DNA from: Asanoa sp. WMMD1127
GTDB taxonomy: Bacteria > Actinomycetota > Actinomycetes > Mycobacteriales > Micromonosporaceae
Reading direction: 5' to 3'
Assembly (NCBI RefSeq): GCF_029626225.1
Contig: NZ_JARUBP010000001.1
Span: 930,001 to 994,000, forward strand
DNA: 64,000 nucleotides
A program made the position numbers and the translations under genes. The notes under the pieces are model-generated. The model did not search any database and was not told the DNA's origin. It saw only the letters and a list, made by a program, of their open reading frames with translations. Shown here piece by piece: positions 10,630 through 15,007 of the stretch. Positions within the stretch are counted from its first letter, which is position 1. Each line of letters begins with the position of its first letter.

Positions 10630-11871
10630 GTGAGCATCGCTGCCCTGCGTACCCCCGATGGCGAAGCCGCCCTGGCCGCGGCGGCCGACCTGGCTGGCGG
10701 CGACCCGCTGGCCGCGGCCGCCAAGCTGCGGTCCCGGGGCGTGCCGCCCGATCTGGCCTCCGCCGCACTCACCCAGGCCACGCTACGCCGCCAGGCGGTC
10801 ACGAAGTTCGGCCCGGCGGCGGCCGGCCTGTTCTTCACCAGGGCCGGGCTGGAGCAGGCAACCCGGGCGGTGGTGGCGGAGCGCCGGGCCGCGCGCCTGG
10901 TCGCCGCCGGCGTGCGGTCGCTGGCCGACCTGGGCTGCGGGATCGGCGCCGACGCGCTGGCCGCCGCCCGGGCCGGGATCGAGGTCGTCGGCGTCGAGAT
11001 CGACGAGACCACCGCCGCGGCGGCGGCCGCGAACGGGGCCGGCCTCTTCTCGGTCGTCCACGGCGATGCCACCGCCTTCGACGTCAGCGGCTTCGACGCG
11101 GTGTTCTGCGACCCGGCACGGCGGTCGACGGGCGGCCGGCGGGTGTTCGACCCGGCCGCGTACTCGCCGCCGTGGGACTTCGTCGAGGCTCTGGCCGCCC
11201 GGGTGCCCCGGCTGGCGGTCAAGGTGGCGCCGGGCTTCGACCACGACCGGGCGCCAGCGGGTGCGGAGACGGAGCTGGTCAGCGTCGACCGCGAGGTGGT
11301 CGAGGCGACGCTGTGGTGCGGCGCGCTGGCCTCGGTGCCGAGGCGGGCTTCGGTGGTGCGCGGCGGGGTCGCCCGGGAGCTGACGGGTTCGGGGACGGTC
11401 GCGGCCCAGGTCGGACCCGTCGGTCGCTTCTTGTACGACCCCGACGGCGCGGTGGTCAGGGCGGGCCTGGTCGCCGAGTTCGCGTCGACGGTCGCGGGCC
11501 GGCTGGGCGACCCGACCATCGCGTACGTCTGGACGGACACCGCCGTGCCGACCAGTTTCGCGCGCTGCTTCCAGGTGACCGAGGTGCTGCCGTTCTCCCT
11601 GAAACGGCTGCGCGCGTGGCTGCGCGCCCGCGAGATCGGCACGGTCGAGATCTTGAAACGCGGCTCGGCCCTCGACCCGGCCCAGCTCCGCCGCGACCTG
11701 CGCCTGTCGGGCCGGGCGTCGACGTCGCTGCTCCTGACCCGGGTGGCGGGTGCCCAGGTGGCGGTGCTGGCGACACCGATAACCTTCGAAGGTGGCCAAG
11801 CGAGCCCAAGGAACCCCGGCGACGGTGGTGCTGACCCGCGAGAAGGTTCCGTTCACGACACACCCCTATGA
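10630..11871 (+). CDS. Class I SAM-dependent methyltransferase with THUMP-like C-terminal domain
   Basis: Predicted methyltransferase of 413 residues. The Rossmann fold is marked by LADLGCGIGADALAAARAG (motif I), VVGVEIDE (motif II acidic residue) and DAVFCDPARR, a DPAR-type motif IV where N6-methyltransferases have NPPY. The C-terminal half (TEVLPFSLKRLRAWLRARE, then EILKRGSALDPAQLRRDLRL) matches the THUMP-like domain attached to these proteins. The substrate, probably a nucleic acid, is unknown. GTG start at 10630, divergent from groES, with almost no leader after CIRCE 2. Its last 80 bases overlap ybaK in another frame, which suggests coupled translation; the extreme C-terminus (GGQASPRNPGDGG and on) looks non-conserved. 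Confidence 0.82.
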   Translation: MSIAALRTPDGEAALAAAADLAGGDPLAAAAKLRSRGVPPDLASAALTQATLRRQAVTKFGPAAAGLFFTRAGLEQATRAVVAERRAARLVAAGVRSLADLGCGIGADALAAARAGIEVVGVEIDETTAAAAAANGAGLFSVVHGDATAFDVSGFDAVFCDPARRSTGGRRVFDPAAYSPPWDFVEALAARVPRLAVKVAPGFDHDRAPAGAETELVSVDREVVEATLWCGALASVPRRASVVRGGVARELTGSGTVAAQVGPVGRFLYDPDGAVVRAGLVAEFASTVAGRLGDPTIAYVWTDTAVPTSFARCFQVTEVLPFSLKRLRAWLRAREIGTVEILKRGSALDPAQLRRDLRLSGRASTSLLLTRVAGAQVAVLATPITFEGGQASPRNPGDGGADPREGSVHDTPL

Positions 11872-12277
11872 CGTCGACCCCAGGACGCCGTCCTATGGGG
11901 AGGCGGTGGCGGCCGCCCTCGGCATCGACCCGCCGCGGGTCTTTAAAACCCTGATCGCCACGGTCGACGGCCAACTCGGCGTCGGGGTGGTCCCGGTGGC
12001 GAGGTCGCTTGACCTGAAGGCACTCGCGGCGGCGCTGGGTGGGAAGCGGGCTTCGATGGCGGAGCCCGCCGCCGCCGAACGGGCGACTGGCTATGTCACC
12101 GGTGGGATCTCGCCGCTGGGGCAGCGGTCGCGGCTGCCGGTCGTGCTGGACGAGTCGGCGATGGGGCACGCGACGATCTTCGTGTCGGCTGGCAAGCGGG
12201 GGTTGCAGCTCGAGCTCTCGCCTGGGGATCTCGTGCATCTCACTGGGGCCGCGGTGGCGGCTATCGCTGCCGCTTAG
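11792..12277 (+). CDS. ybaK: Cys-tRNA(Pro)/Cys-tRNA(Cys) deacylase YbaK
   Basis: 161-residue editing enzyme that hydrolyses mischarged aminoacyl-tRNA, mainly Cys-tRNA(Pro). Family signatures are present: TREKVPFTTHPYDVD at the N-terminus, PPRVFKTLIA with the conserved catalytic Lys, ALGGKRASMAEPAAAERATGYVTGGISPLGQ with the substrate loop, and LPVVLDESAM. Length is normal for the family. GTG start inside the end of the upstream methyltransferase gene, so the two are likely co-transcribed. Its TAG stop abuts the first base of the 22-bp terminus of the repeat region at 12278. Confidence 0.93.
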   Translation: MAKRAQGTPATVVLTREKVPFTTHPYDVDPRTPSYGEAVAAALGIDPPRVFKTLIATVDGQLGVGVVPVARSLDLKALAAALGGKRASMAEPAAAERATGYVTGGISPLGQRSRLPVVLDESAMGHATIFVSAGKRGLQLELSPGDLVHLTGAAVAAIAAA

Positions 12278-12478
12278 CTTTGGTTGCGGTCCGTATGGGT
12301 GGAGCTCCTCGTCGGGCTTCGCTCTAGAGCATCAGGGTCTCCGGATGGGGACAAGGTCGTTCGTCCGGTTGGGCGCTCCACCTTGTCCCCATCCGGAGAC
12401 CCTGATCTGTCTGGCTACGCCCGACGAGGAGCTCCACCCCCCGCCGCCCCCCGGGGGGGTGGGGGTGGGCATGAGGTT
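12278..12478 (+). repeat. Structured repeat unit A (3' of ybaK)
   Basis: Begins with the 22-bp terminus directly after the ybaK stop. Outer stem 12297-12317 with 12419-12439 is a perfect 21 bp; inner stem 12331-12357 with 12380-12406 is a perfect 27 bp around a 22-nt loop (12358-12379). A C-rich then G-rich run (12435-12469) and TTTGTTTTT (12477-12485) follow, so transcripts from ybaK may end here. Loop and stem logic are shared with unit B. Confidence 0.8.
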
Positions 12479-12527
12479 TGTTTTTCGAGGCCGGGTTGTC
12501 GCGCCGGTTGCGGGGTCAGCGACACGG

Positions 12528-12737
12528 GCAACCGCCAGCCCCCGACGGCGGCCAGGTCATCCCGCCAGACCCGCCGACACCGACACAAGCAACCGCCAGC
12601 CGCCAACCTCGGCCAGCTCATCGCGCCAGACCCGCCGCCACCAACACGAGCAACCGCCAGCCGCCGATCGCGGCCAGACCATCGCGCGCCAAACCCCCGC
12701 CACCAACACGAGCCACCACCAGCCGCCGATCGGCGGC
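12528..12737. repeat. Tandem array of about 61 bp, 3.4 copies
   Basis: Units start at 12528, 12589, 12650 and 12712 with period 61, 61 and 62. Each begins GCAACCGCCAGCC and contains CGGCCAG-CATC-CGCCA-ACCC; the last copy is partial and diverged. No reading frame is kept through the 62-base step, so this is not a protein repeat. Confidence 0.8.
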
Positions 12738-13123
12738 ATAGATTGAGCGCCGGAGGAGCCGATGCCCTTGGGCGAGATCTCGCCGATTCGGTCCTCGTGC
12801 CGACCGGCCATGATCACGTGCGCCTGGTCTGGCTTCTGAGGGCGTTTCTCCTTGATCGTGTGGGTCGCGACTGGGCGACACGCCGACGCGCGCCCAGATG
12901 AGCTGCACATGCTCACGAGCACAGTGCGCTAACGACCCGATGAGCTGTACATGATCGAGGTGGCCGAGGCCTCACCACTCGCACTCCGACCCAGCATCAG
13001 CCCACTGCCACCCGCAGCCGGGTGATCCAGCGGGCCCTGGCTCCGACCAGGCATCCGCCGACCGCCACCAGCACGTCCGGGTGATCCCGCGAGTTGGTCA
13101 TCCGCCAGCGGGCGACCGGCGCC

Positions 13124-13393
13124 GCGCGGTTGTCGCCTCCTATCGGCCATCACCGGGGACAACACGCGCCTCGCCCCACGGTCTCGCCGCAACGCAAGCG
13201 CTCATGTCGGTCGACGCGCAGCAGGCGCGATCGCCTAGACCAGAGACCCACCCCGGCCCAACCGCCGGCCGCCCAACGGCCAGCGCCCGACGGACCGCGC
13301 GGTTGTCGCCCCATGGTGGCCCATCACCGAAAGCAACCACGCGCCTCGCCCCACGGTCTCGCCGGAACGGAAGGGCTCGTGTCGGTCAACGCG
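13124..13393. repeat. Pair of 95-97-bp direct repeats
   Basis: Copy 1 (13124-13218) and copy 2 (13297-13393) share GCGCGGTTGTCGCC, GGCCCATCACC-like and ACGCGCCTCGCCCCACGGTC segments with scattered differences and small gaps. Flanking phrases such as CAGCGCCCGACGGACCGCG (13281-13299) recur again near 13410. This suggests repeated local duplication in the region. Confidence 0.75.
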
Positions 13394-13514
13394 ATCGCCC
13401 GGCCCAACCGCCAGCGCCCGACGGACCGCGCCGCCGGATGGCGCCCAGGGCTGTTCGTGGCGCGCGCACCAGGCCCGTCGCAACCGACCAGCTACACACG
13501 ACGGGCCCCAGGCC

Positions 13515-13690
13515 CCACCCCCGGCGGGGGGCGGGGGGTGGATCTCGTCGGCGGGCGTAGCCCGACGGCCAGAAGGTCCGGACGGTGACAAGGTGGAGCG
13601 CCCCACCGGACGAACGACCTTGTCACCGTCCGGACCTTCTGGCTGCCCTAAGCGAAGACCGCCGTCACCCCATACGGACCGCAACCAAAG
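13515..13690 (-). repeat. Structured repeat unit B (3' of the sugar permease gene)
   Basis: Inverted, diverged copy of unit A. The perfect 26-bp stem (13569-13594 with 13617-13642) encloses a 22-nt loop (13595-13616) identical to the unit A loop at 21 of 22 positions when read on the minus strand. The stem differs from that of unit A at six aligned positions, and every change is compensated in the opposite arm. Distal to the stem are the shared phrase CTACGCCCG, then CCACCCCCCGCC and a G-rich run. The terminus coincides with the base of the permease terminator. Confidence 0.8.
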
Positions 13691-13722
13691 AAGGGCCCGG
13701 CGGCAAAGCCGCCGGGCCCTTC
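13690..13722 (-). terminator. Intrinsic terminator of the xylose-type importer operon
   Basis: Perfect 15-bp stem (13690-13704 with 13708-13722) with an AAA loop, followed on the minus strand by TTCTTT-type sequence, about 10 bp beyond the permease stop codon. Its T-rich tail merges into the terminus of repeat unit B. Confidence 0.85.
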
Positions 13723-13732
13723 AACAGAACAG

Positions 13733-15007
13733 CTAAACCCGACCGGTAGACCGAGCCCGCCGGCGCGAGATCGCGTCGACGCTAGCGGCAACCAGAAGGA
13801 CCAGGCCGGTCACCATGTAGACGACGCTGGACGGCTGGTTGAGCAGCCCCATGCCGTTGATGATGATCGCGATCACGAGACCGCCCAGGATGGCGTCGAC
13901 GATTCGGCCCTTGCCGCCGAAGAGGCTGGTGCCGCCGATGACGGCCGCGCCCACGGCGTACAGCAGGGTTGAGGCGCCGCCCGTGCCCGGGGAGATCGAG
14001 TTGTCGCGGCTGGCGAGCATGATGCCGCCGACCGCGGCCAACGTCGAGCCGATCATGAAGCAGGCCAGTTTGACCATGCCCACGTTGATGCCGGCGCGGC
14101 GGGCCGCTTCGGCGTTGCCGCCGACCGCGTAGACGTGCCGGCCGAACGACGTCTTGGTGAGCAGGAAGGTCAGGCTGACCAGCAGGACGAGCAGGACCAG
14201 CACCACGATCGGCACGCCCTTGATGGAGGTGACCGCGGCGTTGCGGCTGCGCTCGATGCTCAGCCAGTAGGTGGCCAGGCCGACCAGGACCGCCAGTGCG
14301 ACGATCTTGGCCAGGGTGACCTGGACGGCCTCGGCGGTCAGGCCGCTGGCCCGCCGCTTGGCGCCGCGCCGCAGCACGATGAACGCGTAGCCGCCGACCA
14401 CCAACGCGAACACGACCCAGCCCAGCCAGACCGGCATGTCGTTGTTGTTGATCGCTCGCAGCGTCTCGTCGCGGATCGCGATCGTGCCGCCCTCGCCGAT
14501 GAGCCGCAGCAGCACGCCCTGCAGGGCGAGGAACGCCGCCAGCGTCACGACGAACGACGGGATGCCCAGCTTGGCCACCAGCAGACCGATCAGCAGACCG
14601 ATCACGGCGCCGGTGACGAGGCAGGCCAGGATGCCCAGCGGCCACGGCCAGCCCCACCGCGTGACGACGATGCCCATCATGGCCGCCGCCGTGCCGGCCG
14701 CGTAGCCGGCCGACAGGTCGATCTCGCCGAGCAGCAGCACGAAGACGAGGCCCATCGCGATGACGATGACGGCCGCCGCCTGGTGGATCAGGTTGGCGAA
14801 GTTGAACGCGTTGGTGAACGTGTTGGGCCGCAGCGCGGCGAACACGATGACCAGCGCGATGATGCCGAGCACCGCGGGCAGCGAGCCGGCGTCACCGCCA
14901 CGGACCCGCGACCACCAGTTGGCGACGGCGGCCCCGAGCGGGTTGCCCGGAGCGGTCGGCTGCTCGGCGACGGGCTCGGTCGCCTCGACCTTGGTCGGGG
15001 TGCTCAT
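13733..15007 (-). CDS. Sugar ABC transporter permease (XylH-like)
   Basis: Membrane permease of a carbohydrate importer of the ribose/xylose class, 424 residues, within the XylH size range. A 30-residue cytosolic tail precedes about ten or more helices, beginning LPAVLGIIALVIVFAALRP. Typical family text is visible: NFANLIHQAAAVIVIAMGLVFVL, then GEIDLSAGY, FGRHVYAVGGNAEAARRAGI (the cytosolic loop that contacts the ATPase) and AAVIGGTSLFGGKGR. A long loop RRGAKRRASGL splits the protein in the middle, as in XylH. Start ATG overlaps the stop of the ATPase gene by four bases. Xylose specificity is inferred from XylH likeness only. Confidence 0.88.
   Translation of the reverse strand: MSTPTKVEATEPVAEQPTAPGNPLGAAVANWWSRVRGGDAGSLPAVLGIIALVIVFAALRPNTFTNAFNFANLIHQAAAVIVIAMGLVFVLLLGEIDLSAGYAAGTAAAMMGIVVTRWGWPWPLGILACLVTGAVIGLLIGLLVAKLGIPSFVVTLAAFLALQGVLLRLIGEGGTIAIRDETLRAINNNDMPVWLGWVVFALVVGGYAFIVLRRGAKRRASGLTAEAVQVTLAKIVALAVLVGLATYWLSIERSRNAAVTSIKGVPIVVLVLLVLLVSLTFLLTKTSFGRHVYAVGGNAEAARRAGINVGMVKLACFMIGSTLAAVGGIMLASRDNSISPGTGGASTLLYAVGAAVIGGTSLFGGKGRIVDAILGGLVIAIIINGMGLLNQPSSVVYMVTGLVLLVAASVDAISRRRARSTGRV

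Follow-up and report, generated by a model that had tools for sequence, protein, structure and literature searches.

Introduction

REP elements have a conserved stem and a variable loop. The attC sites, by comparison, are recognised by structure, with stems that are compensated, and they possess a RYYYAAC end consensus and an integron integrase. Long stem-loops also form the sti single-strand origins of Streptomyces rolling-circle plasmids. Every element of an IS110/IS1111 lineage encodes a bridge RNA adjacent to its transposase, and an intrinsic terminator consists of a GC-rich hairpin followed directly by a U run. In the passages cited, REP and BIME sequences with their RAYTs are described as dispersed intergenic palindromes that occur in several copies, sometimes as inverted pairs, and that are linked to mobile elements; the roles suggested for them include transcription termination (PMC2817692, PMC1525189). 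Another candidate mobile or repeat element, MRSC-65-2, comes from diverse phyla and carries a repeated UYCCGG; the cited description gives it one long stem that covaries, numerous copies within a genome, an occasional position near a transposase, and a possible function as DNA (PMC11109978).

Here, we describe a family of long hairpins, two copies of which (A and B) lie in a 64-kb stretch of the Asanoa sp. WMMD1127 genome; the whole of this stretch is referred to as the window. The best reading of the family is that it is REP-like with inverted conservation. It shares with REP/BIME sequences its dispersed intergenic palindromes, multiple copies, inverted pairs and link to mobile elements, but its loop is conserved and its stem is free, it occupies 1-16 places per positive genome among 61 relatives where REPs, in the source cited, usually number >100 per genome (PMC2817692), and no Y1 transposase is found in the source genome (G000) or in four of its congeners (G002-G005). 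The family thus fails the REP/RAYT comparison on both transposase and conservation pattern. It resembles attC sites and the attC-like OTH-22-1, as these are described in the passage cited, in being structured DNA defined by a hairpin (PMC8632094), but its conserved part is the apical loop and not the stem base. The single covarying stem, copy number and occasional nearby transposase recall MRSC-65-2; a comparison by description only places UYCCGG outside the conserved loop of the hairpin family, and the loop-pattern stretches listed here are all from actinobacteria rather than from diverse phyla. Like sti origins, family members are long stem-loops with copies on plasmids (pMR2 and a pIJ101-like plasmid of S. 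longwoodensis), but the source-genome copies lie between chromosomal genes and not in plasmid gene sets; identity with the sti of pIJ101 was rejected because a search of pIJ101 did not find the loop motif. The hairpin is not described in the open-licence literature matches listed, and older or subscription papers may hold it.

Results

Two facing hairpins in a gap between convergent genes

Hairpin A occupies 12331-12406 on the plus strand and hairpin B 13568-13643 on the minus strand. Each has a perfect 27-bp stem and a 22-nt loop; the initial annotation had measured A correctly and had stopped one base short in B, to which it gave 26 bp. Its observation of six stem differences within an aligned 25 bp, all compensated, holds for the inner 25 bp, and over the full 27 bp the two stems differ at 8 positions (1, 2, 6-9, 16 and 19), every change being compensated in the opposite arm. 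The loops differ, as had been noted, at a single base (GGTT/GGTG). Perfect arms of at least 16 bp with a short spacer occur at two places in the 64-kb window, and those of at least 14 bp at six, against 0-1 in each of 20 shuffles; together with single-strand DNA fold z scores of -10.6 for A and -11.4 for B, these counts indicate that the hairpins did not arise by chance. A and B are oppositely oriented and face each other across non-coding DNA that separates two convergent genes. More structure is present than was first described: a second, outer helix surrounds A, the 149-nt DNA fold that includes this second helix reaching -68 kcal/mol, and a 22-bp inverted repeat bounds the A-B block. The features of the locus are as follows.

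11825..12277, plus strand: upstream gene, aminoacyl-tRNA editing (YbaK-like) domain protein (Pfam PF04073, E 1.3e-24; gene call)
12278..12299, plus strand: left outer inverted repeat of the A-B block, 22 bp, 100% complementary to 13669-13690, beginning directly after the upstream gene stop codon
12297..12322, plus strand: left outer arm of element A, 92% complementary to 12414-12439, paired in the DNA fold
12331..12357, plus strand: 5' stem arm of hairpin A, 27 bp (sequence, DNA fold)
12358..12379, plus strand: conserved loop of hairpin A, CGTTCGTCC-GGTT-GGGCGCTCC, 22 nt (pattern in 85 stretches of the genome collection; alignment A1)
12380..12406, plus strand: 3' stem arm of hairpin A (sequence, DNA fold)
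12414..12439, plus strand: right outer arm of element A, partner of 12297-12322, paired in the DNA fold
12437..12468, no strand assigned: C-run/G-run imperfect palindrome 3' of element A (sequence, repeat analysis)
12489..12732, no strand assigned: interior, a degenerate direct repeat of 61 bp present about four times (repeat analysis)
13568..13594, minus strand: 3' stem arm of hairpin B in the minus-strand reading (sequence, DNA fold)
13595..13616, minus strand: conserved 22-nt loop of hairpin B, CGTTCGTCC-GGTG-GGGCGCTCC (sequence, DNA fold)
13617..13643, minus strand: 5' stem arm of hairpin B in the minus-strand reading (sequence, DNA fold)
13669..13690, minus strand: right outer inverted repeat of the A-B block, 22 bp, perfect partner of 12278-12299
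13690..13722, minus strand: 15-bp terminator-like hairpin outside the family, just past the minus-strand convergent gene and ahead of element B (terminator-like in the pattern scan)
13733..15007, minus strand: downstream convergent gene, ABC transporter permease, BPD_transp_2 (Pfam PF02653, E 4.5e-33; gene call)

The C-run/G-run palindrome beside A has a counterpart at 13513-13541, adjoining B, and the sequence TTTGTTTTT lies at 12477-12485, 8 nt beyond the A-side copy. None of the seven interior open reading frames between A and B matched a protein family above the Pfam cut-off, and a decayed transposase in this interval was rejected on these grounds, the one chance match having an E value of 0.23. 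At the orthologous place hairpin A is kept in A. siamensis with two compensated changes (L069/L044) and in A. iriomotensis with a one-base deletion in one arm (L112/L042). Hairpin B was not found at these orthologous places, where the matches were to its outer parts only.

Copies, distribution and the conserved apical module

The homologue search and covariance model proposed in the initial annotation were carried out, and the resulting model, R1, found the family in many actinobacteria. The 8.0-Mb source genome holds about eight copies, of which R1 recognises seven distinct places plus one half copy; besides A and B they comprise an inverted pair 1.3 kb apart (L009), two further loci (L010, L011), the half copy (L012) and a degenerate copy (L013). 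Inverted pairs are known at A/B, L009 and L174. Searched within this phylum, R1 matched 24 of 61 relatives at 1-16 distinct places per positive genome, with 16 in the congener G003, and 20 of 396 genomes sampled phylum-wide; these copy counts are lower bounds, as 79 candidates per genome were scored in the survey of relatives and 12 in that of the phylum. An exact scan for the loop pattern in a one-genome-per-species collection returned 85 stretches, and the 80 listed are all from named actinobacteria.

Between genera the stems are wholly different yet paired, while the loop, CGTTCGTCC-N4-GGGCGCTCC, barely varies in 50 diverse copies (alignment A1). Its conservation between distant actinobacteria bears out the earlier suggestion that the loop sequence matters. 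The loop folds into an apical module composed of a 4x4 internal loop (CGTT/CTCC), a 5-bp stem (CGTCC/GGGCG) and a variable tetraloop. Within the 5-bp stem, one copy (L008) has swapped a C-G pair for G-C, and in a Streptomyces type this stem is varied further. Some copies, such as L005 and L055, have 21-nt loops. Apical loops of 30-39 nt occur in several copies from outside the class and also in two copies belonging to the same order. A protein-coding reading was rejected: although some frames are open on both strands, the 21-nt and longer loops break the frame. A phage origin was also rejected, since a 111-nt query had no match in a phage collection and scans of viral contigs for the loop pattern gave 0, 0 and 3 stretches, the three being L276, L277 and L278.

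Compensatory change in the stem

Alignment A1, built on sequence alone, contains 50 copies that are at most 85% identical and in which 13 or more of 18 stem positions pair. Double changes occur at 26 of the 27 long-stem pairs, and over all 32 pairs there are 350 doubly changed cells against 125 after shuffling; because the copies are related by descent, these counts are not independent. Paired cells make up 86.8% of the alignment compared with 63.8% in shuffled controls. The covariation score is 0.523 against 0.131 for shuffled columns and at most 0.135 when the partner position is slid, a control in which the true register has some advantage because the structure used is that of copy A. That stem pairing is maintained by compensatory change, as was first argued from A and B, is strongly supported.

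Similar copies within G003 display stages of this process when compared by eye. One arm is changed in L165, leaving C·C, and the same change is present in both arms of L168; L169 has two compensated changes, and L166 and L167 each retain a single mismatch (G·T and T·T, respectively).

The mismatch spectrum of the stems

Among 1184 stem cells there are 1085 Watson-Crick pairs, 36 G·T and 24 A·C; these come from 74 clusters, out of 97 formed from 147 copies, in which 13 or more of the first 16 positions pair. The cluster filter scored G·T as paired and so favoured it over A·C, which makes the observed symmetry conservative. As a control, 23 distinct tRNAs from the same loci contain 27 G·U and 0 A·C in 473 pairs (Fisher p = 4e-5 for the two spectra), a comparison biased by the tRNA finder, which itself penalises mismatches. 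Among clusters in which 18 or more of 22 pairs are Watson-Crick, 55 in all, pair 22 from the loop is A·C in 28 and pair 24 in 33. The near-symmetric mismatches point to pairing as DNA, or to pairing needed on both strands, rather than to a one-strand RNA.

Rfam searches gave no hairpin a score at the gathering threshold. Within window positions 11500-14500, searched to E 5, there were sub-threshold matches only, several of them microRNA models on the hairpins, and at the gathering threshold 16 loci yielded three matches, none on a hairpin. A group II intron domain (RF00029) was observed at 3878-3953 of L092, about 1.1 kb from a hairpin.

Genomic setting

When the count is limited to hairpins in which 10 or more of 18 stem positions pair, 130 of 133 lie outside predicted genes; genes were called by codon usage, which makes distances approximate and misses some genes. 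Within the genus, 15 of 32 copies are between convergent genes, a class that accounts for 12% of intergenic DNA, and one of 32 is between divergent genes, which account for 27%. Outside the genus the same tendencies appear, with 18 of 60 copies in convergent gaps (17% of intergenic DNA) and 14 of 60 in divergent gaps (37%), and every gene orientation is found. Since the copies share ancestry, p-values for these enrichments are optimistic. The upstream gene of genus copies is co-oriented in 21 of 30 cases, and in 19 of these it is no more than 300 bp away.

None of 129 copies had TTTT on the loop strand at 18-42 nt past the loop, where the U run of an intrinsic terminator would be sought, and 2 of 129 had it on the other strand. 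A terminator pattern scan of 12200-13760 left A and B unflagged, its 8-nt loop limit excluding the family by design; it flagged 13690-13722, a hairpin already placed 3' of the permease gene.

Hairpins on IS110-type elements, at tRNA-Gly genes and on plasmids

Of 168 hairpin-bearing loci, a figure that includes overlapping fetches, 10 have an IS110-type transposase no more than 500 bp from the hairpin. In one IS110 lineage (L079, L125, L224, L228 and L281) the hairpin is just inside the right end, TTGACACAGAGGGGAGCC, with the transposase on its other side. Thirty-seven loci were scanned for this right end, which was recognised in 29 of them, representing 27 distinct places (L239/L287 and L241/L288 are duplicates); L079 and L125 had been chosen for the scan because they bear hairpins. 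The hairpin is present in 5 of the 29 right ends, and R1 matched 2 of 30 IS110 relatives fetched by protein. It is therefore an optional module in IS110-like elements, in contrast to a bridge RNA, and is missing from close relatives such as L219, which has an 84% identical transposase. Its orientation varies as well, being opposite to the transposase in L079 and L125 and the same in L188, L197 and L207. Three candidate half hairpins (L109, L059 and L012) were considered, and none was shown to be an IS110 insertion.

Other hairpins were observed at IS110-like right ends. Those of L234 and L238 carry a comparable hairpin with another loop, GTCAAGC-GCAGTCT-GCTTGAC (z -5.5 and -6.4), and that of L283 carries a weaker one with the loop CGCTCCT (z -2.1).

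Ten of 133 copies are followed on their own strand, 246-263 nt downstream (about 255 nt), by a tRNA-Gly 3' fragment. Of 13 loci examined for an intact tRNA-Gly, L098, L104, L113 and L049 contain one and the other nine do not; in the first three it is kilobases away on the opposite side of the hairpin. We infer that the tRNA-Gly loci are integrative elements whose hairpin lies close to one of the attachment ends. L098, L104, L113 and their relatives have the appearance of small integrative elements in tRNA-Gly(CCC) of Streptosporangiales, and a gene of the inositol-monophosphatase family is found repeatedly, in 10 loci, no more than 4 kb from the hairpin. Sixteen plasmid records matched a long query, among them pMR2 and the pIJ101-like plasmid of S. 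longwoodensis. The hairpin of pMR2, which is treated as an actinomycete integrative element in the passage cited (PMC3218068), is about 300 bp from the integrase gene.

A hairpin-bearing block present in one congener

In G003, the two conserved convergent genes of the L169 locus are separated by about 800 bp that contain a hairpin. This block of about 0.8 kb is missing at the same site in five other genomes of the genus: in the source genome the stop codons of the convergent genes appear to overlap, with no hairpin between them, and in G001 and G004 about 100 bp are present, containing one other repeat of the G003 block. Its presence in G003 only suggests that the block was gained there, or else lost repeatedly. 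The block is a mosaic of several repeats, and neither a target-site duplication nor an exact empty site was resolved at this locus; in an empty-site comparison at the rplA locus the flanks were not collinear. In the orthologous junctions of G002 (L294) and G005 (L299), a palindromic array of AGGAACGGTCCGTTGTTAAC-like units and their reverse complements fills the gap.

No recombinase for the hairpin family was identified by searching the genus genomes for two candidate transposase families. Y1_Tnp (PF01797) was absent from G000, G002, G003, G004 and G005, and G001 had one weak match with a stop; DEDD_Tnp_IS110 gave no match in G000-G004, each of which carries several hairpins, and one match in G005. 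Because each family is missing from most of the multi-copy genus genomes tested, neither explains the copies there, and mobilisation in this genus by RAYT/Y1 or by IS110 was rejected.

Other repeats were observed near family members. In G004, 3' of the ribosomal protein L1 gene (L045/L213/L273), another long hairpin, whose loop of 24 nt is GGCCGCAAAGAGCGCGACCTCTAT, sits a few hundred bases from a family hairpin; by eye, a similar stem with another loop is found in L216. Inspection by eye also located a palindromic stretch around GATCATGTGTG in or near hairpin loci of the source genome (L009 4790-4885, L012 5410-5475 and L013 4850-4905), and in the corresponding interior of L009 a tandem repeat different from the 61-bp repeats between A and B.

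Discussion

The hairpin family of many actinobacteria is probably a mobile structured-DNA element. More specifically, we favour its being a non-autonomous structured-DNA repeat that is recognised in folded form through the apical module and is copied or carried by other activities, a reading to which we assign a probability of about 0.48. The covariation of the stem, the conservation of the loop, the symmetry of the mismatches, the intergenic position of the copies, the optional module in IS110-like elements and the L169 block count for it. Weighing against it are the absences of Y1 and IS110 transposases, which leave no enzyme linked to the family, the mosaic make-up of the L169 block, copy numbers that are low for REP, and the fact that a need for pairing in RNA of both strands would give the same mismatch symmetry.

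The last of these points belongs equally to the strongest rival, a bidirectional terminator or insulator whose GC-rich stem blocks transcription from both sides, whose loop is the site of a termination or RNA-processing factor, and which spreads by hitch-hiking. This explanation, which is compatible with the structured-DNA repeat, accounts well for the enrichment of copies in convergent gaps and their depletion from divergent ones, for the close co-oriented upstream genes in the genus, and for the different palindromic array that fills the convergent L169 junction of G002 and G005. The near-complete lack of TTTT past the loop argues against it, as do the 14 of 60 copies between divergent genes outside the genus, the 22-nt loop common to different genera, which a terminator does not need, and the convergent stop codons that appear to overlap without a hairpin in the source genome at the L169 locus. 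At the window locus itself the permease gene is already served by another terminator-like hairpin, and A and B went unflagged in a scan whose loop limit excludes them. We regard the terminator or insulator as unlikely on balance, though well worth setting beside the preferred reading. A structured non-coding RNA transcribed from the loop strand, acting in trans or regulating in cis, would explain the strong covariation and the conserved internal loop, and its distribution would be that of the R1 matches (24 of 61 relatives and 20 of 396 phylum genomes). It is improbable given a mismatch spectrum that is not RNA-like, the occurrence of all gene orientations outside the genus, the lack of an Rfam match at the gathering threshold, and a presence in close IS110 relatives that is optional and of variable orientation to the transposase. 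Of the three possibilities raised by the initial annotation (a structured RNA, a protein-binding cruciform and a hairpin recognised by a recombinase), a DNA hairpin or cruciform recognised by a protein fits best and a plain one-strand RNA is least favoured, on the strength of the symmetric mismatches, the gene orientations and the Rfam result.

Quasi-palindrome correction is a recognised process that gives double changes in one step, and a neutral palindrome kept perfect by template switching or by gene conversion between its arms would thereby acquire compensated differences of the kind observed. Simple gene conversion, raised earlier as a threat to the argument from covariation, fails to explain the persistence of A·C at pairs 22 and 24, which speaks against blind correction, or the uncorrected single-arm changes of L165, L166 and L167 beside the compensated L168 and L169 among recent copies; nor does it predict a loop conserved between distant genera, and we consider this origin very improbable. 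Scarcely any weight falls to the hairpin as part of IS110, either as a bridge-RNA loop or as a preferred target of the transposase. The proximity of transposases in 10 of 168 loci and the place of the hairpin just inside several right ends speak for this idea, which is already weakened by the scarcity of hairpins among fetched relatives (2 of 30) and by five genus genomes that each have several hairpins and no IS110 match. Moreover, the hairpin loop is nearly constant, whereas the loops of bridge RNAs are described in the source cited as programmable (PMC11208158).

Under the structured-DNA repeat reading, A and B would be two copies of a dispersed actinobacterial repeat of about 140-190 bp including the outer arms. 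The long inverted-repeat body may form an extruded cruciform, or fold as single-stranded DNA, the letters of the stem being free provided that they pair and the apical module serving as the putative recognition feature. A trans-acting actinobacterial protein would recognise the folded DNA, and the element would be copied into intergenic sites, preferentially at the 3' ends of genes, and would also travel with IS110-type elements, with elements integrated at tRNA genes and with plasmids. Copies already in place may double as bidirectional transcription barriers. A wider and more doubtful proposal is that the family represents a phylum-wide class of mobile structured DNA, with a nearly fixed 22-nt apical tag, a free but paired stem, and host-encoded copying of extruded or single-stranded hairpins. 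In view of the hairpins with other loops in L234, L238 and L283, several types of loop may exist, each having a different partner.

The covariance model and the list of loci provide a means of telling the RNA, terminator and DNA readings apart. If the preferred reading is true, the family would be a clean natural case of selection on DNA secondary structure in which stem sequence is released, and it would add a module common to unrelated mobile elements. It would also open a way to finding a new actinobacterial protein that binds or copies DNA in a structure-specific manner.
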